A stretch of DNA of 16,321 nt from Bacilli bacterium (lineage in GTDB: Bacteria > Bacillota_I > Bacilli_A > RFN20 > CAG-826). Both the position numbers and the translations under genes were made by a program. Shown here piece by piece: positions 73 to 15,273 of this stretch; the first letter of the stretch is position 1; every line of letters starts with the position of its first letter. Below the pieces are notes generated by a model. That model was not told where the DNA came from. It saw nothing but the letters and a program-made list of their open reading frames with translations, and did no database searches. The stretch is from assembly GCA_024413875.1 (NCBI GenBank), contig JAKSVY010000035.1, forward strand, positions 1 through 16,321, given 5' to 3'.

Positions 73-981
73 ATGAAAACAAAAGTAAAAACTCCAAAGA
101 TTAACCAACCAAAGAAGAAATTTTCAATCTTCTCAATAATTATCACCATTCTTTTGTGTGTATATTCACTTTCATTAATCGTCCTTATTTTATGGGCGTT
201 TGTTTCGTCGTTTAAAGATAACTTATTAGATTTTGAAATAAACCCAGTTTGGCTTCCTAAAGAATGGGTCACAACAAACTATGAAGTTGCATGGAATCAA
301 TTCTCTATCGATATTGAAACTCCAACAGGATTTGATACAGTTACTATGCCAATGATGTTCCTATATGGATTTATCTACGCTCTTGGATGTTCGTTTGCTG
401 CAACATTTGTTCCATGTATTACTGGATATATGTGTGCAAAGTTCAACTACAGGTTCTCCAAAATTATCTATCTTGTTGTTGTTATCGTTATGATCTTACC
501 TATTTTTGGTAATTTACCAGCTGAAATTAAGATGGTGAGAACATTTGACCTTGACGAACATATATGGGGTGTTTGGATCATGAAAGCTAACTTCCTTGGC
601 TTATATTTCATTGTCTTCTATAACTACTTCAAGAGTTTGCCAAATGCATATAATGAAGCTGCAAAGATTGATGGTGCAGGTAACTTTAGAATTTTATTCA
701 GAGTCATTCTTCCAATGGCGATGCCAATCTTCTTTACAGTTATGTTAATTAACTTCATTACATTCTGGAATGACTATCAAACACCATTAATTTACTTACA
801 AACAAAGCCAACCATCGCGTTAGCTATGTATAAAATCGCTATGGAAAACATTCCAGGGGTTGCGCTTCCACCAATCAAGATTGCGGCAGCAATGCTTGTT
901 TTAACACCTGTATTAATTTTATTTTTAGTGTTCCACAAAAAGTTGTTAGGCAACTTAACAATGGGTGGTATTAAAGGATAG
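73..981 (+). CDS. carbohydrate ABC transporter permease, MalG/LacG type
   Basis: This 302-residue inner-membrane protein is the second transmembrane subunit of a CUT1-type sugar ABC importer. After a basic N-terminus it has about six membrane segments (roughly 21-45, 95-118, 130-148, 167-187, 213-236, 268-290). The EAA loop that docks the ATPase is clear: E195-A-A-x-I-D-G-A202 with the usual L-P at 213-214, followed by the W-N-D motif at 232-234. Length is somewhat above the usual 270-290. The start is set by GGAG at 60-63, 9 nt upstream. The stop is 8 nt before the next gene, so they are co-transcribed. No ATPase gene lies in this operon within the window; a MalK/MsmX-like one starts at 6606 in a separate unit and may energise it. 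The substrate cannot be read from sequence; the neighbours suggest a complex plant or host glycan. Confidence 0.93.
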   Translation: MKTKVKTPKINQPKKKFSIFSIIITILLCVYSLSLIVLILWAFVSSFKDNLLDFEINPVWLPKEWVTTNYEVAWNQFSIDIETPTGFDTVTMPMMFLYGFIYALGCSFAATFVPCITGYMCAKFNYRFSKIIYLVVVIVMILPIFGNLPAEIKMVRTFDLDEHIWGVWIMKANFLGLYFIVFYNYFKSLPNAYNEAAKIDGAGNFRILFRVILPMAMPIFFTVMLINFITFWNDYQTPLIYLQTKPTIALAMYKIAMENIPGVALPPIKIAAAMLVLTPVLILFLVFHKKLLGNLTMGGIKG

Positions 982-3949: not shown

Positions 3950-5881
3950 ATGAATAAAGTAATTAAATCTCTTCTTCCATTAATCTTCCTTTCAACAACT
4001 TTAGTTGGTTGTAATAATGGTTCTGCTAAGGTTGAACCTATTAATCCAATTGGTGAAAATGAATTCCACAAAGTTGAAGGAACACTTCATAAAGTAAATG
4101 TTACTGAAGGTACAGTTAACTTTATTGAAGACACTAAGACTGATTTTAGAATCCTTATCCCAAATAATGATAGTGCGCTTAAAGCTGCTTCATTTATTGG
4201 TTCTAAAGTTACTGAAGCAACAGGAGTGTCTATTGATATCGTTACTTTTGATAACACATATCAATATCTTTCTTCTGATAAATTAATTGTTTTAGGTGTT
4301 GATGAAATCTCCGCTCAAGCAGGCGTTAAGAAAACAGAAGAAAATCTTGATGTTACAGGTTATCAAATCACATCTAAAGATAATTCAGTGTTCGTCTTTG
4401 TTAATCATAACTATGGTTTCCAACAAGCTGCACTTTGTTTCTTAAAATACGCGGTTGGATATGACCGTATCTCAGAAAGAATCACCCTTTATAAGGATAA
4501 TTTCTCTAAGATGCCTAACTTTGATGTTGTTGAAAGACCTGATTTTCAAATCAGAACTCAAAGTAATAAGGTTACACAAAACTATTCATATGAAACAGGA
4601 TTCCTCCTTTCAAATGAAGTTTTCTATAACTCCGCTAAAGTTAAATTCGTCCATAACTCATTCGACTGGGCAAATCCTAGTATTTATAAAAAAGATCACC
4701 CAGGATGGTTTGCGGATGAAGGCGAACAACTTTGTTACACCGCTCATGGTGATGAAGTTGAATATCAAGCACTTATAGATTTAGTTGTTTCTGAAATGAA
4801 GGAAGCAATTTTAGCTAAACCTGACTGCACTCGTATCTCTTTAACAATTGAAGATAACCACTCTTCATGCGGATGCCCATCTTGTAAAGAATCTCTTAGA
4901 CAATACGGAGCAGAATCAGCAGCAGTGGTTAAATTCATGAACTCTATTGATAATGAAATTCAACCATTCATTAAAGAAAAAACTCCTACAAGTAATATTG
5001 ACCTTGTCTTCTTCGCGTATAACAAAGTTGAAAAGGCTCCAGTTAAATTAGATTCAAATGGTAACTATGTTGCAACATCACCTGACGTTATGTGTAATGA
5101 ACACGTATCTGTTTATATTGCGCCTATCGCAGCAAACTACCAAGAATCATTCTACGCAACAGAAAATGAATCTGCGCGTGAAACAATTGAAGGTTGGTCA
5201 GCTGTTTGTAAACGAATTAACTACTGGTTATATGAAACAAACTTCTCTCATTACCTTTATCCTTTAAATTCTTACACAACAATGATTGATACATATCGTT
5301 ATTGTACAGATAAGAATGCGACCTACCTTTATAACGAAGGTCAACATAACCAAGGTGCAGTTACTTGCTTTGGTAGATTCAAAGAATATTTAAATCAAGT
5401 TTCTGAAATTGATGTAAATACTGACTTTATCACTATTGAAGATCACTTCTTCAAAGAATACTTTAAAGAAGCTGAAGTTCCTATGCGTAATTTATATAAC
5501 GAAATTCAACAACATATGAACTATCTTAAGACAGTTTACTTCTCAGATATCGTTGGTAACATCTACGATGGTATTGCTCAAACTAAGTTCTGGCCTAAGC
5601 AATTACTTGAACGCTGGAACCAATATTGTGAAGAAGCTAAAGAACTCGTTAAAGGTTATAGATACACTAACTACAACTTATACGAAACACTTCTTGATAA
5701 CATTACTCTTGAATCAATCTTCCCTCGTTTTGCGTTAATTGAACATCACTCAGGTAAATTCACTTCTGATGATCTCTACAATATGAGAAAAGCATTCCTT
5801 GAAGATTGTACAAATCTTGGAATTACAAACATCAGTGAAGGTACAAAGATTGAATCATTTAAATCATCTTGGGGATTCTAA
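3950..5881 (+). CDS. DUF4838 domain lipoprotein (GH67 alpha-glucuronidase-related family)
   Basis: This is a 643-residue surface lipoprotein. The signal peptide ends in the lipobox L18-V-G-C21. Residues about 62-175 resemble the small alpha/beta domain found before the catalytic barrel in GH20/GH67/GH84-type proteins. From about 195 the sequence follows the DUF4838 pattern, whose best marker is the cysteine cluster C307-G-C-P-S-C312 just after I300-E-D-N-H304. DUF4838 proteins are common in glycan-utilisation loci and are structurally related to alpha-glucuronidases, but their activity is poorly defined. I therefore infer binding or hydrolysis of an acidic or branched glycan and do not assign a reaction. 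AAGGAGG, overlapping the previous stop region 14 bp upstream, sets the start. The protein is co-transcribed with the permease and the Ig-like protein, which supports a joint role in glycan capture. Confidence 0.8.
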   Translation: MNKVIKSLLPLIFLSTTLVGCNNGSAKVEPINPIGENEFHKVEGTLHKVNVTEGTVNFIEDTKTDFRILIPNNDSALKAASFIGSKVTEATGVSIDIVTFDNTYQYLSSDKLIVLGVDEISAQAGVKKTEENLDVTGYQITSKDNSVFVFVNHNYGFQQAALCFLKYAVGYDRISERITLYKDNFSKMPNFDVVERPDFQIRTQSNKVTQNYSYETGFLLSNEVFYNSAKVKFVHNSFDWANPSIYKKDHPGWFADEGEQLCYTAHGDEVEYQALIDLVVSEMKEAILAKPDCTRISLTIEDNHSSCGCPSCKESLRQYGAESAAVVKFMNSIDNEIQPFIKEKTPTSNIDLVFFAYNKVEKAPVKLDSNGNYVATSPDVMCNEHVSVYIAPIAANYQESFYATENESARETIEGWSAVCKRINYWLYETNFSHYLYPLNSYTTMIDTYRYCTDKNATYLYNEGQHNQGAVTCFGRFKEYLNQVSEIDVNTDFITIEDHFFKEYFKEAEVPMRNLYNEIQQHMNYLKTVYFSDIVGNIYDGIAQTKFWPKQLLERWNQYCEEAKELVKGYRYTNYNLYETLLDNITLESIFPRFALIEHHSGKFTSDDLYNMRKAFLEDCTNLGITNISEGTKIESFKSSWGF

Positions 5882-6528: not shown

Positions 6529-6579
6529 AAAAATAAACCGATTCGATACTTAACCAGTATTATTGTTGGTTTATTTTTT
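6529..6579 (+). terminator. two-tier hairpin terminator of the glycan operon
   Basis: AAAATAAACC (6530-6539) pairs with GGTTTATTTT (6568-6577) and runs into a T tract ending at 6579. The loop holds a second small hairpin, ATACT (6546-6550) with AGTAT (6556-6560). It lies 13 bp after the stop of the Big_2 lipoprotein gene. Confidence 0.75.
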
Positions 6580-6605: not shown

Positions 6606-7334
6606 ATGATTAAAGTTGAAAACCTTACACTAACATATCCTAAAACAAGAAGGGAAGCTCCTCGAACAGCGTTAAGAAATATTAACGTTACTTTCGAAGA
6701 TAATTCCTTCAATGTTATTGTTGGAGCATCTGGTAGTGGTAAAACCTCTCTTCTTCATGCGGTTGCAGGTCTTTTAAAATATGAAGGTGATGTTTATTTT
6801 AATGATAGGAACGCGCGTGAAATAGATATTGTGGACCGCAATATGGCGTTAGTAAATCAAAGTTATGTCTTATATCCACATATGACAATTTTTGATAATA
6901 TTGCTTTCCCATTAAAGTCTAAAGGCGCTTCAAAAAAAGAAGTAATGGATGCAGTTAATGAAGTGGCGGAGATTTTAGAATTAGATTATTTATTAACACG
7001 TAAACCAAAAGAGCTTTCGGGCGGACAACAACAAAGAGTTGCCTTGGCAAGAGCGCTTATTAAACATCCAGATATCTATCTTTTTGATGAACCATTAAGT
7101 AATGTTTCTGAAGAAATGAGAGATAAAGAAAAAGAAATGATTCGTAAGGCTGTTAGAAAATATCAATCAATGGCTATCTATATCACTCACAACATGAGAG
7201 AGGCCACCTCTTTAGCGGATAAAATTATCGTCTTAAATGAAGGTGAAATAGTCTTTGTGGGAACCCCTGATGAAGCAATTAAAAGTGATAACAAAGTTAT
7301 TAAAGAATTAATGGAGGCATCATATGTTTTATAA
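6606..7334 (+). CDS. ABC transporter ATP-binding protein, short MalK/MsmX-like
   Basis: This 242-residue cytoplasmic ATPase drives an ABC transporter. It has Walker A GASGSGKT (40-47), Q-loop Q85, signature LSGGQQQR (137-144), Walker B IYLFDE (157-162) and H-loop H195. The order N-V-x-L-Y-P-H-M-T after the Q-loop is typical of sugar-type (MalK/UgpC/MsmX) ATPases. Those run to about 360-380 residues, whereas this one ends right after the nucleotide-binding domain and lacks the C-terminal OB/TOBE regulatory part. The D-loop is unusual: S165-N-V-S168 where S-N/A-L-D is expected. The gene opens a four-gene operon and overlaps the next one by 11 bp. It may serve the permease pair upstream, as multitask ATPases do, or the membrane proteins of its own operon. 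Confidence 0.9.
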   Translation: MIKVENLTLTYPKTRREAPRTALRNINVTFEDNSFNVIVGASGSGKTSLLHAVAGLLKYEGDVYFNDRNAREIDIVDRNMALVNQSYVLYPHMTIFDNIAFPLKSKGASKKEVMDAVNEVAEILELDYLLTRKPKELSGGQQQRVALARALIKHPDIYLFDEPLSNVSEEMRDKEKEMIRKAVRKYQSMAIYITHNMREATSLADKIIVLNEGEIVFVGTPDEAIKSDNKVIKELMEASYVL

Positions 7335-7794
7335 CAAAGAACAAATCCTCCAACTTAAAAATGAAACAAAGAAATATCTAATTATTTCCTCAGTTGTTTT
7401 AGGTATTAGTCTTGCTTTATTTATTACTCTTTTATTCTTTTTAAATGATCAAATTATTAGATATGTTCAAGTAGGTGTATCCATCATTCTTTCATTAGCA
7501 GTGTGCTTTTTCTTATACGTCATTATCAATATTGTTTTAAATAACAATAGACGTCAAAAATTTATCGATAACATTCTTAAAAGAGAAGAAGCTACATATG
7601 AATGCACTATCTTAGAGATTGGTAAAATTAGAACCATTAATCATAATATTAAAGTCTATGATGTAACTATCTCTTATAAAGGAAGAATAGCGACAGTTCT
7701 TTTAGATGATGAATATAGTGGTAAGATTCATGAACTTAAAGGTTTAGTAACCTTAAAAGTTTGCGATAAATATATTGTGGAGATTATTAAATAG
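7324..7794 (+). CDS. two-TM membrane protein with small C-terminal beta-type domain
   Basis: This is a 156-residue protein I do not recognise. A short polar start is followed by two membrane helices (about 18-40 and 46-72) with a tight N-D-Q loop between. A basic stop-transfer patch (N-R-R at about 75-77) suggests both ends face the cytoplasm. Residues about 85-156 alternate hydrophobic and polar residues as in a small beta-barrel or NfeD/PH-like domain. The start overlaps the ATPase gene by 11 bp and uses GGAGG at 7313-7317, inside that gene, so translation is probably coupled. Conserved tight packing suggests it works with the ATPase or the YesL-like protein. No function is assigned. Confidence 0.7.
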   Translation: MFYNKEQILQLKNETKKYLIISSVVLGISLALFITLLFFLNDQIIRYVQVGVSIILSLAVCFFLYVIINIVLNNNRRQKFIDNILKREEATYECTILEIGKIRTINHNIKVYDVTISYKGRIATVLLDDEYSGKIHELKGLVTLKVCDKYIVEIIK

Positions 7795-7796
7795 TT

Positions 7797-8399
7797 ATGA
7801 ATAAGGTTATTAAAAATATTCTCCATCATTGGTATTTATATGTTCTCGCTAGTGTATCGACTACCGCGGTAGTGGTGATGACCACAAACGCGATTAATCG
7901 TCCAATTAACGAAGAAACTATATCTATTTTTGTTGGTTCATGTGGATCATCAAACACTAAGTTATATAACAAATTACTTGAAGATAAGCCTAGTTATCTT
8001 AGACAAATTAGGATTAACTCTGCTGTGTATTTTAATTCTGACTTTGGATATTTATATACAGCGTTTGGTAAAGGCGAAAGTGATTTAGTTATCATTCCTG
8101 AAAGTGTTATTGTGGATGATGTTGTGAAATACTATTACACTCCACTTAATGAATCATACATGAATTCAAAACTAGGTGAAGTTACTTATTACACCCCTAG
8201 TGATATGGATACACCTTATGGTGTGTTAATTAGAACCAAAGGTGATACAAGTAGTAATTTGATCGCGTATTCAAATGAAACACATGATGAAAATTATTAT
8301 GCTTTCTTATACAAAAAATCATTCCACGCAGGTGAAAACAATAAAGTAGAACATGACACCGCAATTAAGTTTATTAAAACGATTAAAAACTATAAATAA
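7797..8399 (+). CDS. membrane-anchored protein, possibly a reduced solute-binding-protein-like domain
   Basis: This is a 200-residue protein with one N-terminal membrane helix (about 12-32) that is not followed by a cleavage site or lipobox, so it is likely anchored with the rest outside. The outer part starts with a strand (TISIFVGSCG, 41-50), has an acidic D-L-V-I-I-P-E-S motif near residues 96-103 and a Y-G-V-L-I strand near 141-145, and ends with a helix of the type seen at the end of extracellular sugar-binding proteins. These are generic features of periplasmic-binding-protein folds, but the length is about half of normal. The start is 2 bp after the previous stop; the only nearby GGAG (7779-7782) is 14 nt away, so re-initiation by the terminating ribosome is likely. 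The assignment is tentative. Confidence 0.6.
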   Translation: MNKVIKNILHHWYLYVLASVSTTAVVVMTTNAINRPINEETISIFVGSCGSSNTKLYNKLLEDKPSYLRQIRINSAVYFNSDFGYLYTAFGKGESDLVIIPESVIVDDVVKYYYTPLNESYMNSKLGEVTYYTPSDMDTPYGVLIRTKGDTSSNLIAYSNETHDENYYAFLYKKSFHAGENNKVEHDTAIKFIKTIKNYK

Positions 8400-8401
8400 T
8401 T

Positions 8402-9253
8402 ATGGCAAGAAAAGTAGCGAGCAAAGACTTTAACAAAAACTCTCTTCCAAGAAATAGAAAGGAACAGTTTTTTGATATTATCAAAAATAGACAAATGGAA
8501 TTCTTTAAAGTAGGCGCTCTCTTACTTTTATTTTTCATTCCATTTTTAGTTTCAATCATTATTAAAGATGTTTCCGTTCTTTCAATTACAAGTATGGAAA
8601 GTGTAACTGAAGAAGAAATTGCTTCTATGATTTTCTCTACAAACATTATCTATAACGCGATGATGTTTGTGTCTATTATTATCTTCTCAATTGGATTATC
8701 AGGAATCATTAAAATCTTTAAAGAATTAATCTATTCAGAACCAATATTCTTTAAGGAAGATTTCTTCCAAGGAATCAAAGAAAATATCAAATCTCTTGTT
8801 GTTATTTCTGTGATTGTGGGATTACTTACCGCAATATCAAATATTGCTTACATTATCTTTGATAACATTGCCTTAAGAGTGCTTCCAACTGCAATTAATT
8901 TCGCGCTTATTTTCCCAGCGTGTTTAATCGCTATTTTCTTAACATCTATTTATAACAATAAAGCATTTGTCACTATCAAAACTTCATACGCTTTATACAT
9001 CAGGTATTTCCCACAAATACTACTTTCTTATGTCTTAGTAATCTTAATGGTGTTTTTAAAATTAATCCCAATTGAATACTTCTTCATTAAGTACATTGTT
9101 CTTATCTTAGCAGTGGTCTTTTATTATCCAACGATCATCTTTGGAAGCTATATTTTCCAAGTAAGTGTTTATGATAAAAACTTCAATAAAACTCAGTTTA
9201 TTGAATATTATCATAAAGGATTATTTAATGAAGACCTTACTGATAAAAAATAA
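8402..9253 (+). CDS. YesL/DUF624-like polytopic membrane protein
   Basis: This is a 283-residue integral membrane protein with about six hydrophobic segments (near 35-55, 80-105, 130-150, 158-182, 205-222, 228-252). The best family clue is the stretch from about residue 99: G-L-S-G-I-I-K-I-F-K-E followed by F-x-x-D-F-F-Q-G-I-K-E-N. This matches the cytoplasmic loop of YesL/DUF624 proteins, where a regulator-like E-x-x-x-x-x-D-F-W/F-x-x-F-K-x-N pattern occurs. YesL proteins are usually about 200-220 residues and sit beside sugar ABC transporter genes; their role is unclear. This copy is longer, with an extra N-terminal basic segment and an outside loop of about 25 residues. It starts 2 bp after the previous stop without a clear RBS, so it is probably coupled. 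It is the last gene of the operon. Confidence 0.65.
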   Translation: MARKVASKDFNKNSLPRNRKEQFFDIIKNRQMEFFKVGALLLLFFIPFLVSIIIKDVSVLSITSMESVTEEEIASMIFSTNIIYNAMMFVSIIIFSIGLSGIIKIFKELIYSEPIFFKEDFFQGIKENIKSLVVISVIVGLLTAISNIAYIIFDNIALRVLPTAINFALIFPACLIAIFLTSIYNNKAFVTIKTSYALYIRYFPQILLSYVLVILMVFLKLIPIEYFFIKYIVLILAVVFYYPTIIFGSYIFQVSVYDKNFNKTQFIEYYHKGLFNEDLTDKK

Positions 9254-9349: not shown

Positions 9350-9382
9350 AAACCTAATTATAAATAATTAGGTTTTTCTTTT
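9350..9382 (+). terminator. intrinsic terminator after the ATPase operon
   Basis: AAACCTAATTAT (9350-9361) pairs perfectly with ATAATTAGGTTT (9364-9375) and is followed by TTTTTCTTTT. The formal loop is only 2 nt, so the innermost pairs probably open. Confidence 0.8.
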
Positions 9383-9485: not shown

Positions 9486-12293
9486 ATGAAATTTAAAAAA
9501 CTCACAGGTAGAGTCCTTATTAGTTCATTAATCGGTTTTGGTCTTCTTGCTCCAGTTACATCTGCAACCGCTGTTGGAGTAAGAGCAGAAGAAGGTATCA
9601 ATGTTGTAATTGATTTTAGTTCTCTTACATTTACAACAAATAAAAGCGAATACCTTGCTTTCTCACAACCTGCTAATGCTCAACCAGACATTGCTGGTAC
9701 AAGTAACTTCTACGTTCCTAATGGCGCAACAGTAAGACGCGCTAATGGAACAGTTGAAACTGTCTCACCATGTATTGCTAAAGAAGGCTCTTGGTATAAC
9801 ATTTATTTCAATAACAATACTTGGGCAGCAGCTTCAAAGTTTACTGTTGAAGTTGGTGATTCATTAACAATTAAAGCTGGTACTTGGACAAGCCCAACCG
9901 GACATAGTATCACTTTCCCAAAAGATTTAGTTGCTGATAGAACTGCTGATGGATATAGCATGGGTGTTGCTAACAAAGTATCTTATACATTCACTAAAGA
10001 TGATTTAGGTTTTGGTGCTGCTACAGACACATCAACCTTATATCTTACAGTTCCTCAAGACTTAACATCTTTACCATTCAATGGTAACTGGGGTGTAAGA
10101 CTTAAAGCTAAAAACGCTGTTACATATACACCAGCTGGTGCTGCGCCTGAAGTAATTGCTAATACAGGTGTTGCTCTTATTGGTGGCAAATTATGTTTTG
10201 AAACAGGTATTGGATGGAATGGTGTTTCATTCATGCGTAGCGCTGTTAATGAAGGAGATAAGTTCGAAATCAATGGTAAATACACAACAACAGTTGGTGA
10301 AACACTTTATGAATTTAACATTGAATTTGAAACAGAATATAAAGGTGGCGCTTGGACAATCCCAATGATTGAAACTCCAGCATATAACTATAGTGATTCA
10401 AACATTATGTCTGTTACTACACAAGTTGCTGATGATAAATCATATTACCTTATGGGCGTGACTGTTGATTCAGATGACTTATTCCCAATTGATTCAGACT
10501 GGAACGCTCAATCTATTATGGAAAATGGTGCTCTCATCACATCAGCTGATGGTACACAAAAAACAATGGACATTGGCTTCATTAAAAATGCTGAACGTAA
10601 ATACTCAATGCTTATGATGGCAAGATATTGGCCAGCACGTGCTCATGATTGGCAAGTAGGGGATAACATTAAGATTAATGGTACACTCACTGCTTTAAAC
10701 GGAAGAAATAAATATACAGTCAATATCTCTAACTGGGATTTCACCTGGGATGGAAGACAATTTAACGCTAACTTCAATAGAGCAGAATTAATCCAAAAAG
10801 TCACACAAGAAATCCAAAATCTTGGTGAACCTTCATTAGATACAGAATGGGTAAATAAACTTAACCAAGCAAAATCTGATACAAGTAGATTAACATCAGT
10901 TGAAGCAACTCAAATCGATAGACTCGTTCTTGCTTCTTTATATCAAAAAGACCGTGCATATCGTGCTTTAGTTGCTGAAAGCCAAGGTAAGACAGTTCAT
11001 AGAACAACACTTAAAGATGTAACTGCTACAACTGAAGGTAATATCTACGATACAGGTGCAATTATTCATTACTCAAACGAATATATCGAGTATACACCTT
11101 ATGGTGGTTCATGGACTGATTACCACAATGGTTCACCATATGATGTTAAGATCTCTCCACTTGATGGAAGTGCTCCAACATTCGTTAAGAGTGCTATGTG
11201 TAACTCATCAGAATCACTTAAATACATCGTCTTAATCTTCATTTCTGAATGGGGACCACACAATGGTTATCCATTTGCGGCAGGTGATAGAGTTGAAGTT
11301 GCTCCAACAGGTTATACTGCTGAAACAGATACAGACTTCTATTTAATGGAAGTTCCTGCTATCGATATGATTTGGTGTGGTAGAGTCTGGAGAGACTATA
11401 AAGATGATGGCGCTGCAATCCAAGACGTAATCACAAAGATTAACTCAATTGGAGAAGTTGAATACACCTCTGAATCAAAAGCAAAGATTGACGCTGCACA
11501 AGCAGCATATGATGCTCTTGATAAGGCTGCAGCGGGTTCTTTATCCGATACCCTTATTGAAACATTAGATAATGCTCAAGCAGAATATCAAAGATTATCA
11601 AATGTCGCAGATGCTAAAGCAATTGTTGATTTAATTAAAGCTATCGGTACAGTTGAATATACCGCTGCATGTAAAGCTAGAATCGATGCTGCTAGAAATG
11701 CATATAATTCCGCATCAACAGAAGTTCAAGCATTAATCTCTGCTGAAGACTATAAGATTTTAACTGATGCAGAAGCTAGATATGTTGTTCTTGGCTATCA
11801 AATCGAAGCTGATGCAGTTGCAGAATTAATTAACGCTATCGGAACAGTTGAATATACAGATGCTTGCAAAGCAAAGATTGATGCTGCAAGATCTGCATAT
11901 GATGCATTAGCAGATGAAGCAAAAGAATTAATTGATGATGCTACATATCAAAAACTTCTTGATGCTGAAGCTCGTTATGATGTCTTAAAAGCAGAAGATG
12001 ATTTTGTTAAATTAGTTAATACATTAAATGAAAACTCTACATTAGATCAAATCTATAGTGTTGTTACTAGGGCGTTATCAATGTATAAGAAGATTGAAAA
12101 CAAAGCTGATGTTGCAGAAGCATATAACAAACTTCTTACATACATTGAAAAATACAATCAATCAATCGCTTCAGTTAACACTGCTCATGAAGAAGCAAAT
12201 GAAGCTGCTGTTAATATGGTAGGTCTTGCTGTTGCAGCACCTGCTTTAGTAGCATTCTTAGCTTATGCTATTTCTAAGAAAGGACTTTTCTAA
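9486..12293 (+). CDS. large cell-surface repeat protein with C-terminal membrane anchor
   Basis: This is a 935-residue exported protein. The signal peptide runs to about residue 34 (cleavage likely after V-R-A). Four related beta-rich modules of about 110-130 residues follow; each has a G-D-x-x-x-I/V turn near its end (GD at 124-125, 257-258, 392-393, 600-601) and then an aromatic-rich strand pair. A degenerate helical repeat (about 432-500) separates modules three and four. Residues 644-838 are three tandem 65-residue helical repeats sharing I-G-x-V-E-Y-T and A-x-I-D-A-A; repeats of this FIVAR-like style occur in Firmicutes surface proteins. A further helical stretch leads to a membrane helix (911-929) and the tail SKKGLF. 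There is no LPXTG. AGGAGG at 9475-9480 sets the start. Likely role is ligand binding held off the membrane by a helical stalk; the ligand is unknown. Confidence 0.8.
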   Translation: MKFKKLTGRVLISSLIGFGLLAPVTSATAVGVRAEEGINVVIDFSSLTFTTNKSEYLAFSQPANAQPDIAGTSNFYVPNGATVRRANGTVETVSPCIAKEGSWYNIYFNNNTWAAASKFTVEVGDSLTIKAGTWTSPTGHSITFPKDLVADRTADGYSMGVANKVSYTFTKDDLGFGAATDTSTLYLTVPQDLTSLPFNGNWGVRLKAKNAVTYTPAGAAPEVIANTGVALIGGKLCFETGIGWNGVSFMRSAVNEGDKFEINGKYTTTVGETLYEFNIEFETEYKGGAWTIPMIETPAYNYSDSNIMSVTTQVADDKSYYLMGVTVDSDDLFPIDSDWNAQSIMENGALITSADGTQKTMDIGFIKNAERKYSMLMMARYWPARAHDWQVGDNIKINGTLTALNGRNKYTVNISNWDFTWDGRQFNANFNRAELIQKVTQEIQNLGEPSLDTEWVNKLNQAKSDTSRLTSVEATQIDRLVLASLYQKDRAYRALVAESQGKTVHRTTLKDVTATTEGNIYDTGAIIHYSNEYIEYTPYGGSWTDYHNGSPYDVKISPLDGSAPTFVKSAMCNSSESLKYIVLIFISEWGPHNGYPFAAGDRVEVAPTGYTAETDTDFYLMEVPAIDMIWCGRVWRDYKDDGAAIQDVITKINSIGEVEYTSESKAKIDAAQAAYDALDKAAAGSLSDTLIETLDNAQAEYQRLSNVADAKAIVDLIKAIGTVEYTAACKARIDAARNAYNSASTEVQALISAEDYKILTDAEARYVVLGYQIEADAVAELINAIGTVEYTDACKAKIDAARSAYDALADEAKELIDDATYQKLLDAEARYDVLKAEDDFVKLVNTLNENSTLDQIYSVVTRALSMYKKIENKADVAEAYNKLLTYIEKYNQSIASVNTAHEEANEAAVNMVGLAVAAPALVAFLAYAISKKGLF
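11415..11999 (+). repeat. three tandem 195-bp coding repeats
   Basis: The codons for the I-G-x-V-E-Y core fall at 11448, 11643 and 11838, exactly 195 bp (65 residues) apart. Copies two and three are closest, sharing I-G-T-V-E-Y-T, A-C-K-A and I-D-A-A-R; copy one is more diverged. They form the helical stalk of the surface protein. Confidence 0.85.
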
Positions 12294-12294
12294 T

Positions 12295-12855
12295 ATGAAG
12301 AACACAGGTTTAAAATTATTAGTCTTATTAGCATCTACATCGTTATTAGCTAGCTGTGGTGGAAAGTCTTCTAACACACCTAAGGCTGATCCATATAAAG
12401 ATGTTAATGAAAGTTTAGAAAAAGTTTATGTTAGCTTCGATATGACTGTTAAAACAGTTGGTAATGGAACTGAATTAAATTCCCATTATTCATTCGCATT
12501 TAATGGAGCCTACTATGTTGTTAACTATGAAGTTGAAAAACTTAATGAATTAAGTGCAGATACATCAACTTCACAAAAAACAACTGAAACAGGTAGTTAC
12601 AACACTAATGTTGAAGAAGCAACGCTTGCTAAATTCAAAGTAAGTGATGAAACATTCACTAACATCGAATATCAAGCAGGTGTTTCATTCACCGGAACCG
12701 CTAAAGATGGAAAAGCATATCTTGGTGTCTCTTATGAAGTAAATAACCTTGCTTTAACAGTAGAGCTTGATGATGGACTTACAAAAGTTGAATACACATA
12801 CACTGTTGCGAGTGGAGCTCAAAACACTGTTACATATTCAAACTTTGTTGAATAA
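12295..12855 (+). CDS. small lipoprotein of unknown function
   Basis: This is a 186-residue lipoprotein. I chose the ATG at 12295, one base after the previous stop, over an in-frame ATG at 12265, because only the later start puts a normal signal peptide (MKNTG, hydrophobic core, lipobox L18-A-S-C21) at the N-terminus. The RBS AAAGGA (12279-12284) lies inside the preceding gene, so translation is coupled to the 935-residue surface protein. The mature part begins CGGKSS and then alternates strands, with a Y-x-F-x-F-N-G-A-Y-Y-V-V-N-Y-like hairpin and a V-E-Y-T-Y-T-V-A end, as in all-beta lipoproteins of the LolA/LppX or DUF-type barrels. No family is claimed. The coupling suggests it works with, or in equal amount to, the surface protein. 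Confidence 0.75.
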   Translation: MKNTGLKLLVLLASTSLLASCGGKSSNTPKADPYKDVNESLEKVYVSFDMTVKTVGNGTELNSHYSFAFNGAYYVVNYEVEKLNELSADTSTSQKTTETGSYNTNVEEATLAKFKVSDETFTNIEYQAGVSFTGTAKDGKAYLGVSYEVNNLALTVELDDGLTKVEYTYTVASGAQNTVTYSNFVE

Positions 12856-12869
12856 CATTTACTAAAGTA

Positions 12870-12920
12870 AAAAGTCTCCTTAAAAACCTATAAAACAGGC
12901 GATATGAGGAGGCTTTTCTT
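12870..12920 (+). terminator. intrinsic terminator after the surface-protein operon
   Basis: AAAAGTCTCCT (12870-12880) pairs with AGGAGGCTTTT (12907-12917), 11 pairs with one T-G wobble, followed by CTTATT. The 26-nt loop contains a small CCT/AGG pairing. Confidence 0.75.
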
Positions 12921-12984
12921 ATTCAAAGAATAAATGTAACAAAACTTATTAAATTTAACCAAAAACAAAGAAAATCAAATATTA

Positions 12985-13014
12985 ATTAATTTTTGAAAAC
13001 AAAATTAATATAAT
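12985..13014 (+). promoter_or_regulatory. -10 box and overlapping inverted repeat before the 627-residue lipoprotein gene
   Basis: A perfect TATAAT lies at 13009-13014, with no good -35 at the right distance (TTGAAA at 12993-12998 is only 10 bp away). An inverted repeat, ATTAATTTTTG (12985-12995) with CAAAATTAAT (13000-13009), touches the -10 box and has one extra T. It may be an operator. The RBS AGAGGA (13025-13030) follows. Confidence 0.45.
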
Positions 13015-13036
13015 TATCTCGAAAAGAGGAAATCTT

Positions 13037-14920
13037 ATGAAAAAATCTTTAATTACAACATCGTTAATGCTTTTAATGTTAGTCACATCTTGTGGTGGTA
13101 AGTCATCTGATACTGCTCCTACAAATGTTGATCCAGTAAAACCATCAACAACATACACTGATCCTGATGAAGCTGATAAGGATAGTGGTAACACTGACAA
13201 TAATGAACCAGTTAAGGTTGAAAGTTCTCCATACACTCAAGAAGAACTTTATTTTGGTGCTAGAGTCTTTGGTAAAGACTTCTTAGAAGCTAACGCTAGT
13301 GAAGCAACTAAACCAAACGCTAATAGTGCTAGAGTTGTTGAATTCCAATTTGATTCACAAGCTGGTGTAGCAACAAAATACACTCCAATTGTCGCTAAAA
13401 GTTACGATGGCATGTTCCGCCCATTCTCTCTTGTAACAGAAGAGGAAACTTTCTTAGGTGCACCTACATCTGCAGCTAAGGTTTATAGAATAGGAGCACC
13501 TGAAGTTGGTGGTCTTTATGCTGGGCCAGACACACTTGCGAATAATGGTAACTACGCTATTTGTGATGGATATGGAAATAGAATTTTAAACACAAATTCT
13601 TCAGGATACTTTTACTTTGGTGCAGCAGTATTTGAAAAAGGTTATATGGTTCATGAAGAAGAAAATGAATGCGCTCCAATTGAAGGATTACATCTTCAAT
13701 TTAATGCTGGAAGTTCAAGTTCAAGCTATAAAACATATGAAAAATTTGTTTTCTATAAGGACACCAAAGTTATCGCAGTTCTTGACTATAATGCCGCTTT
13801 ATTCTGCCCATTAGCAGGACAACACCAAGGTGATGATATTGAAGGTATTGAATTCCCAAGAATGTCATTAGATAAATATGGTAAAAAGGATTGGACATAT
13901 ACTGAAATTGATGGCCATTTCCGTTTCTACAATGAACAAGGAAAGATTGTCTCTGCTATCGCTACAAACTTTAAGGATGCTGTCCCAGAATATTCAACAA
14001 CATGGTTCTCAGCAAACCACTTAAATATTCAAACAACTTACGAAACTGATGATAAGCATAACTATACATTCACTACAGGTGGTAAGTATTACAACGTAAC
14101 AAACACAGTATTTGAATACACTACAGGTAAAACATATCAAGTTAAGAATCTTAACTATGTTGTTTCTACAACAACTGACATGAAATACTCAAATACTTAC
14201 TATGATTTCACATTAGCAAATGTTCAATTCATTAGTAATAAAACATTACAAGAATTCTCTTATACATTTATTATCGATAAAGATCTTGTATTAAGAGATG
14301 ATGTCACTGAATTAATCTCTGCAGAAATTGTTAAAACAGATAATTACTATTATTCAACCGCTAACGGAAAAACTAATTTCTTTGATAAATCAACAGCGGT
14401 TCACGCATTATCAGTAAATAAAGCAAACATTGTTAACATGTATCCATGTAGTGAAATGTTTGCTTACAAAACTGCAAGCTCAAAATTAGGTCTTGTAGGT
14501 TTTGATGGTAAATATTTATTTGACGCTGACTATGCAAATTTCTGTGACCCTCAATACGCAGATGGATATAACTATATTGTCGGTAAGAAATATACTGGAA
14601 ATGAATACTATCTCCTTAACTTAAAAGAAAAGACAAAAACATATCTTGGTAAACCAGATGGTGCAAATACACAAGGTATATGGAGTGGATATTACTTAGT
14701 TGAAAACAGTGCAGAATATCGTTTCTATAATTTAACAACTGGCGAAACTGTATACACATACAACAAATCATATGTAACCGCTCAATCTGACTTCGTAAAT
14801 GAATTAAGTGGTGCAGGTAGATACAGTATGAAGTTATTCCATTTTGAAAAAGCTAGTGGTGGATTCATCATTCTTAAGTTTGGTGAAAAACTCGTTTGCG
14901 ATAATAACCAAAAAGCATAA
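13037..14920 (+). CDS. large lipoprotein with WG-repeat-like C-terminal region
   Basis: This is a 627-residue surface lipoprotein. The signal peptide ends in V16-T-S-C19; the mature end CGGKSS is followed by a Ser/Thr/Asp/Pro-rich linker (about 25-60) and then a long strand-rich domain. Around residues 480-505 the pattern K-L-G-L-V-G-F-D-G-K-Y, then an F-x-A-x-Y stretch, matches a WG repeat (normally K-W-G-L-I-D-x-x-G-K). Similar turns near 290-310 (F-R-F-Y-N-E-Q-G-K) and 555-575 (Y-R-F-Y-N-L-T-T-G) suggest more diverged copies, so a propeller- or solenoid-like fold is possible. No catalytic residues are recognised. It is a single-gene unit with its own -10 box and a strong terminator. A role in binding at the cell surface is inferred from location only. 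Confidence 0.75.
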   Translation: MKKSLITTSLMLLMLVTSCGGKSSDTAPTNVDPVKPSTTYTDPDEADKDSGNTDNNEPVKVESSPYTQEELYFGARVFGKDFLEANASEATKPNANSARVVEFQFDSQAGVATKYTPIVAKSYDGMFRPFSLVTEEETFLGAPTSAAKVYRIGAPEVGGLYAGPDTLANNGNYAICDGYGNRILNTNSSGYFYFGAAVFEKGYMVHEEENECAPIEGLHLQFNAGSSSSSYKTYEKFVFYKDTKVIAVLDYNAALFCPLAGQHQGDDIEGIEFPRMSLDKYGKKDWTYTEIDGHFRFYNEQGKIVSAIATNFKDAVPEYSTTWFSANHLNIQTTYETDDKHNYTFTTGGKYYNVTNTVFEYTTGKTYQVKNLNYVVSTTTDMKYSNTYYDFTLANVQFISNKTLQEFSYTFIIDKDLVLRDDVTELISAEIVKTDNYYYSTANGKTNFFDKSTAVHALSVNKANIVNMYPCSEMFAYKTASSKLGLVGFDGKYLFDADYANFCDPQYADGYNYIVGKKYTGNEYYLLNLKEKTKTYLGKPDGANTQGIWSGYYLVENSAEYRFYNLTTGETVYTYNKSYVTAQSDFVNELSGAGRYSMKLFHFEKASGGFIILKFGEKLVCDNNQKA

Positions 14921-15021: not shown

Positions 15022-15273
15022 TTATTTATGTTCATTTAATAACTTTTGGACATCATCTTCATTATATAATTCAGCTTTTGCTGCTTCACCATGCATTTCT
15101 TGTTGCATGAGTTTTAAGGCACAAACAGAGGAGTTTGCTAAAACAACTTGGTCTCCAACAACAATGAAAGACACCCTATCACCGACGCCTAAACCTAATA
15201 ATTTTCTGATTTCTTGTGGGATAGTAATTTGACCTTTTGGCATTACTTTTGCTTGTTCAATATATGAGTTCAT
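15022..15273 (-). CDS. AbrB/MazE/SpoVT-type DNA-binding protein
   Basis: This 83-residue protein has the swapped-hairpin fold of AbrB-like transcription factors and antitoxins. Residues about 8-50 carry the family pattern K-G-Q-I-T-I-P-x-E-I-R-K-L-L-G-L, then G-D-R-V-S-F, then a V-V-L strand. The acidic helical tail (about 55-83) is of the type that binds a partner toxin in antitoxin members. No toxin gene lies beside it: only a terminator follows on its strand, and the gene on the other side is a divergent phosphoesterase. It is therefore either a solitary regulator or an orphan antitoxin. AGGAGG (15281-15286 on the opposite strand) lies 7 nt before the ATG. An 18-bp palindrome sits at its predicted transcription start, which points to self-repression. 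Confidence 0.85.
   Translation of the reverse strand: MNSYIEQAKVMPKGQITIPQEIRKLLGLGVGDRVSFIVVGDQVVLANSSVCALKLMQQEMHGEAAKAELYNEDDVQKLLNEHK

Follow-up and report, generated by a model that had tools for sequence, protein, structure and literature searches.

Proteins of the DUF624 (YesL-type) family are neighbours of sugar importers and of two-component genes. MsmX-type ATP-binding cassette (ABC) ATPases, which belong to the same broad group as the sugar-importer ATPase MalK, are shared among several importers, according to the excerpt available of PMC7658222. In a literature search for YesL and DUF624, neither word stood in the title or the abstract of any of the matches listed; these matches include a gene neighbourhood (PMC6120924, in excerpt) and a table entry (PMC8406281, in excerpt), and the available part of PMC11466899, on the ABC systems of Bacillus subtilis, does not mention YesL. 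The role of YesL/DUF624 proteins therefore looks open. Here we describe a block of four genes in a 16,321-nucleotide contig of a Bacilli bacterium (assembly GCA_024413875.1, contig JAKSVY010000035.1; this whole stretch is called the window), in which a remote relative of these proteins is encoded together with a stand-alone MalK-type ATPase. The four genes are a real conserved module, for which we found no description.

The block occupies positions 6606-9253 on the plus strand. Its first gene (6606..7334; 242 aa) encodes P1, a stand-alone MalK-type ABC ATPase consisting of the nucleotide-binding domain only. P2 (7324..7794; 156 aa) is a two-helix protein of no known family with a C-terminal domain that is probably cytosolic, P3 (7797..8399; 200 aa) has a single N-terminal helix and an outside lobe resembling a sugar-binding protein, and P4 (8402..9253; 283 aa) is a six-helix remote DUF624/YesL relative with a CysZ/CTL-like predicted fold. 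Open reading frame coordinates confirm the layout reported in the original prediction, with an 11-bp overlap between P1 and P2 and 2-bp gaps between P2 and P3 and between P3 and P4.

A protein search returned 14 rows for P4, the window's own included, and 5 rows for P3, and a profile search with P4 returned 67 rows, again counting the window's own. Scanning of genome contigs recovered three loci (L001-L003), from two Bacilli assemblies (deer rumen and omasum) and one uncultured Erysipelotrichaceae, that carry all four genes in the window order; identities of the L003 proteins to P1, P2, P3 and P4 of the window are 34, 21, 18 and 27%. P4 relatives were found in 18 of 395 genomes sampled from the class of genome G001, and a single genome, G002, has 12 P4 places, one partial. 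The 46 distinct P4 places in genomes comprise L001-L003, 42 whose surroundings were examined, and G186:C55:676, a P4 fragment (about 104 residues) at the edge of its contig that is counted for proximity to sugar permeases. With genes labelled by profiles, all four stand together in 20 of 46 P4 loci, 18 times in the window order and twice as P4-ATPase-P2-P3, so that the gene order of the set recurs in related genomes. A stand-alone ATPase accompanies P4 without P2 and P3 in 8 loci; P2, P3 and P4 occur without an intact stand-alone ATPase in 10 (in six a full-length MalK-type gene is present, one runs into the contig end, and three have none); and P4 is found alone or in part in 8, five of them beside a full-length MalK-type gene.

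P2 and P3 always go together, and 30 of the 46 P4 loci have both. All 20 strong matches to the P3 profile (E < 1e-30) in the 395-genome sample lie in the same gene run as a P4 gene; nine matches were weaker, and one of these (G119) was examined. Its locus (L121:8266-9297), at which no P4 was found, looks like a degenerate version of the module, with P2, a P3 shortened to 79 aa, and directly 3′ of it a stretch resembling a MalK-type ATPase terminus. In a tree of P4 sequences, from which two incomplete rows (L053 and L067) were excluded, every one of the 26 members of a well-supported clade (100/95) comes with a stand-alone ATPase, although 7 are without P2 and P3. Over the whole tree, which has several long branches, the ATPase label requires 3 changes compared to 13.4 in shuffles, and the P2/P3 state requires 4. 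Two P4 genes found later, both in G201 and not in the tree, are likewise next to a stand-alone ATPase gene, and one of the two belongs to a complete block of four. Since the ATPase accompanies P4 throughout the clade even where P2 and P3 are missing, ATPase and P4 look like a unit kept by selection, that is, a core to which P2 and P3 form an optional pair, absent together. The suggestion that the genes form one set thus stands as far as an inherited unit is concerned, but not as a set of four equal parts.

P1 scores 104.9 bits against the Pfam family ABC_tran (PF00005) and carries the motifs of an ABC ATPase (GASGSGKT, VNQ, LSGGQ, IYLFDEP with the catalytic Glu, and ITHN). Its top NCBIfam match is UgpC, at 231 bits against a cut-off of 432, and because this match is limited to model positions 14-223 of 357, P1 is trimmed to the nucleotide-binding domain, as had been predicted. 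Along with this best match, P1 shares with the MalK/UgpC/MsmX-type ATPases its maltose/sugar ATPase matches in the PDB and its Walker A, Q-loop, signature, Walker B and H-loop. It differs from them in the absence of the C-terminal regulatory domain, in its groove residues, and in a D-loop Ser that replaces the Asp found in 20 of 20 full-length MalK-type proteins; with the domain absent and the NCBIfam cut-off not reached, it falls outside full-length MalK/UgpC. Energy-coupling factor (ECF) transporters consist of two ECF-type ATPases, EcfT, and an S component. The block is not of this type: it has a single ATPase, which reaches 151 bits with ECF ATPase models against a cut-off of 330, and in Pfam and NCBIfam scans none of P2, P3 and P4 matched EcfT.

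All 26 stand-alone ATPases compared keep the catalytic Lys, Asp, Glu, and His; 24 have the Q-loop Gln and 21 the D-loop Asp. (These counts, and those below for groove positions and P4 residues over 26 or 27 rows, do not include L079; the full-length group excludes the full-length rows from L052 and L002.) In an ATPase tree, for which ten of 59 hits were excluded (fragments, a gene cut by a contig end, and other ABC proteins), the 21 full-length MalK-type proteins cluster closely in a single clade (100/100), most of them on short branches, whereas the 27 stand-alone ATPases are diverse and sit on long branches. The full-length label refers to length (419-696 aa) and tree position and not to individual domain scans, and the ATPase of L052 (357 aa, with a C-terminal extension) counts as stand-alone in the locus counts, the P4 residue comparison and the P4 tree and as full-length in the ATPase tree. 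Separating the two labels takes 2 changes, compared to 16.4 in shuffles.

Four positions in the groove at which permeases dock (numbered as in P1 of the window) distinguish the two kinds of ATPase. Residue 82 is Y in 19 of 26 stand-alone and M in 20 of 20 full-length sequences, residue 84 is S in 14 of 26 and F in 20 of 20, residue 99 is I in 23 of 26 and M in 18 of 20, and residue 102 is P in 24 of 26 and G or A in 18 of 20. None of the 26 stand-alone ATPases has a full-length-typical residue at any of these positions, whereas each of the 20 full-length proteins has two to four; in P1 of the window they are L, N, I, and P. Of 10 P4-bearing genomes tested, 8 contain a gene for a full-length MalK-type protein (E ≤ 1e-70). 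Taken with the groove residues, this speaks for a partner of the stand-alone ATPases other than importer permeases, although ancestry could give the same pattern.

The 283-residue protein had been described as YesL/DUF624-like, a reading that holds at the level of a remote relationship. Neither P2, P3, nor P4 reaches the cut-off of any Pfam family, the window P4 has no Pfam match at E ≤ 1 (PF04854 included), and none of 12 P4 relatives matches PF04854, one having a weak match to an unrelated family. Comparison of the P4 family profile with four DUF624 proteins, a check that could have contradicted the assignment, gave a match at the profile level, with probabilities of 95.2% (E 2.8e-8, 114 columns) and 92.2% (E 5.8e-7, 75 columns). 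Six of ten sub-threshold DUF624 matches lie inside P4 genes, at 17-21 bits compared to a cut-off of 24.2, and five of these six genes belong to relatives without a stand-alone ATPase. P4 therefore lies outside the family as set by the Pfam gathering score and within the wider superfamily by profile-profile comparison, and on this evidence is a remote DUF624/YesL relative. Unlike the four DUF624 proteins compared, it is some 60-80 residues longer and has its own ATPase alongside. An ordinary type I importer permease (PF00528) was also considered for P4 and rejected, with no family match and a profile comparison against 22 UgpE-like permeases at 0.3%.

The structural model of P4 (predicted local distance difference test score, pLDDT, 88.7; predicted template modelling score 0.86) resembles CysZ, a sulfate permease, and CTL1/PNS1, a likeness of the predicted model with no sequence relation shown. 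No ABC permease fold is among the structure matches listed for the model, which excludes nothing. In the available part of PMC13160678 (2026), the function of eukaryotic CTL proteins is called unknown, a transport role for CTL1/PNS1 is argued against, and no ATPase partner is mentioned. Conservation along P4 reaches 2.6-2.7 bits in the N-terminus, the loop between helices 2 and 3, and the C-terminus, compared to 1.27-1.61 in most helices and the outer loops. The conserved regions are cytoplasmic, and residues 107-130 (8720..8791, plus strand; the loop and the start of helix 3, mean conservation 2.73 bits) are a candidate docking site for the ATPase. Compared with one another, the internal repeats of P4 score 23.4, 22.9, and 17.5 for the three pairs, where the best of 100 column shuffles gave 14.2, 16.6, and 14.6; the best of 15 unrelated-permease windows reached 17.4, so the third pair is marginal. 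P243 occurs in 27 of 27 P4 proteins with a stand-alone ATPase, P172 in 24 of 27, and G38 in 25 of 27, each in 0 of 13 of the comparison group, and all three are absent from L079, where an ATPase lies beside a P4 gene outside the clade. Because these residues largely follow the P4 tree, they are not independent evidence. Prolines 172 (window 8915-8917) and 243 (9128-9130) lie near matching places of repeats 2 and 3. At five loci (L072-L074, L076, and L080), P4 relatives without P2 and P3 stand directly 5′ of a full-length MalK-type ATPase gene (597-696 aa), and in L074 LacI- and fructokinase-like genes (named by eye) lie ahead of the P4 relative; YesL-like proteins may adjoin MalK genes more widely.

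P2, aligned from 30 sequences, has two hydrophobic stretches, with topology assigned by eye, and a C-terminal domain without a recognised relative in Pfam, NCBIfam, or profile comparison. The possibility that this domain supplies the missing MalK regulatory domain was dropped after a profile comparison at 0.3%. The model of P3 (pLDDT 83.5, from 7 sequences) shows one helix and an alpha/beta lobe with about 163 residues outside. ABC importer binding proteins, or fusions with one, account for most of the 50 Foldseek and almost all of the 50 VIA-align rows listed for this model, and the Foldseek E-values are weak (best 0.004). Structural alignments pair about 127-143 residues across about 300 target residues, as might be expected were the second lobe missing. 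The predicted likeness to binding proteins is accordingly found in the model and not in sequence profiles, where comparison with five binding proteins from the same loci gave nothing (probability 0.9%). P3 thus resembles, by fold only, a single lobe of a sugar-binding protein. ABC substrate-binding proteins have two lobes and a ligand cleft, and P3 as a whole falls outside that class; compared to extracellular sugar-binding proteins such as MalE, YesO, and similar, P3 has one lobe only and is anchored by a helix.

In the window, the operon upstream of the block encodes a CUT1-type (UgpE/MalG-like) sugar importer permease (73..981, plus strand; PF00528, E 6e-16). Eight P4-bearing genomes contain 32 P4 places, of which 27 have a match to this permease no more than 15 kb away (about 7.4 expected) and 20 no more than 10 kb away (5.2 expected), where a match is defined as E ≤ 1e-5 to the window permease and may include other ABC permeases. 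Among the five P4 places without such a match within 15 kb, two are partial P4 hits and one is on a contig of 9 kb. Mirror-tree comparison over 14 common loci gave correlations of r 0.45-0.60 for pairs within the module, and of 0.31, 0.33, and 0.35 for the permease with the ATPase, P2, and P3, respectively; on larger, differing sets, from which L067 was excluded, correlations within the module were 0.40-0.66.

Our preferred reading, to which we give slightly less than an even chance, is that the products of the four genes assemble into a single ATP-driven membrane complex dedicated to their sugar-utilisation locus. P4, a six-helix DUF624/YesL-type protein of three helix hairpins, would offer its conserved cytoplasmic face to the stand-alone, MalK-derived P1 for docking; the two would form the core suggested by their joint inheritance, and ATP binding and hydrolysis by P1 would move P4. 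Of the accessory pair, P3 would contribute an extracellular lobe like that of a binding protein and P2 a small intracellular domain. The complex would most probably act on the adjacent CUT1 importer or on its substrate, by gating, capture, or feeding, the importer itself being energised by a full-length MalK. We infer such a physical complex, its direction of action, its substrate, and its link to the importer, with observed conservation, co-inheritance, domain make-up, predicted folds, and location of conserved residues as the starting point. A narrower proposal, for which we see clearly smaller prospects, is that P1 and P4 make up an ABC machine whose membrane subunit, unlike importer permeases of any known type, is a YesL protein with the CysZ/CTL fold and threefold internal repeats, driven by ATP via its cytoplasmic helices; if this were true, YesL/DUF624 proteins generally would partner MalK-type ATPases. 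Inheritance with a private ATPase already provides a first concrete, testable partner for YesL-kind proteins, and if P4 is ATPase-driven, a fold like that of CysZ and the eukaryotic CTL proteins would join those of the membrane subunits that work with ABC ATPases.

Several observations weigh against a dedicated complex. In eleven of the 46 P4 loci the only ATPase gene is of the full-length MalK type, six others have no intact ATPase of either kind next to P4, and a further one (L067) is truncated by the contig end. Stand-alone ATPases are not one clean group, as six of 27 branch on the full-length side of the ATPase tree. P1 of the window has only two of the four commonest stand-alone groove residues, keeps a MalK-like LYPHMT segment after the Q-loop, and is without the D-loop Asp, and the groove differences coincide largely with tree groups, so that ancestry could be their source. 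Over the 14 common loci, P4 divergence tracks the permease (r 0.57) about as well as the ATPase (r 0.60), and over 19 loci it correlates with full-length MalK at r 0.58; shared location could therefore explain part of the correlation, and mirror-tree analysis of these sequences does not cleanly separate module from locus.

Some of these points would suit an arrangement, unlikely in our estimate, in which P1 is the private energiser of the adjacent sugar importer and P2-P4 are its accessory proteins, P4 not binding P1. P1 is indeed nearest to the MalK/UgpC-type ATPases, retains the LYPHMT segment, and belongs to a family of blocks lying mostly within 15 kb of a sugar-permease match (27 of the 32 P4 places). 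Against this, the ATPase follows P4 in 26 of 26 cases, even without P2 and P3, its groove positions are unlike those of full-length MalKs, and its divergence is weakly correlated with that of the permease (r 0.31, 14 loci). Full-length MalK-type genes, moreover, occur in 8 of 10 genomes tested and lie in or beside the block itself in L003, L041, L044, L054, L055, and L065, and the sharing of MsmX-type ATPases (PMC7658222, in excerpt) means that an importer needs no ATPase of its own. The original prediction that the set energises or gates the upstream importer therefore keeps its sugar-permease neighbourhood at most of the P4 places examined, but plain energising is weakened by the full-length MalK genes and the groove residues.

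A similarly low probability attaches to the block being a transporter in itself, an ABC transporter of a new type with P4 as its permease and P3 as a tethered half receptor. Two-lobed receptors close on their ligand, which a single lobe such as P3 cannot do; P4 shows little conservation in its helices and outer loops, and a sugar permease is already near most P4 places examined. For the similar CTL1/PNS1, a non-transport role is argued in the available part of PMC13160678. Least probable among these alternatives, in our view, is a sensor, in which P4, P3, and P2 would sense the importer state or outside sugar and P1, as a regulatory ATPase, would signal inside with no solute moved. The conserved surface of P4 is on the cytoplasmic side only, AraC-type regulator genes lie directly 3′ of P4 in L002, L003, and L044, and the usual company of DUF624 proteins, sugar importers and two-component genes, would fit such a role. 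However, P1 keeps Walker A, the Walker B Glu, the signature, and the H-loop, and Pfam and NCBIfam scans gave no signalling domain match for P2 or P4.

Terminator-like hairpins with T-rich tails flank the block on the plus strand, one between the sugar operon and the block (6529..6578; −16.1 kcal/mol, z −5.1) and one 3′ of the block (9350..9375; −10.4 kcal/mol, z −3.9), and the four genes may therefore form a separate transcript. Neither hairpin is among the matches of a pattern scan. The L001 gap corresponding to the hairpin region does not fold unusually, and in L043 only 3 bp separate the preceding gene from the block.

Further along the window, two genes with lipoprotein-like starts (12265-14920; 196 and 627 aa) had no above-cut-off match in the libraries tried, and an AbrB/MazE-like antitoxin-type gene (NCBIfam scan) lies on the minus strand at 15022-15273. 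Upstream of the block, open reading frames and family scans identify, besides the CUT1-type permease, a 981-aa Ig-like protein, a DUF4838 protein, and an Ig-like lipoprotein. The DUF4838 gene of this sugar operon lies at 3950-5881, and a relative is found at the matching place, one gene ahead of the ATPase, in L001, L043, L046, L050, and L058.

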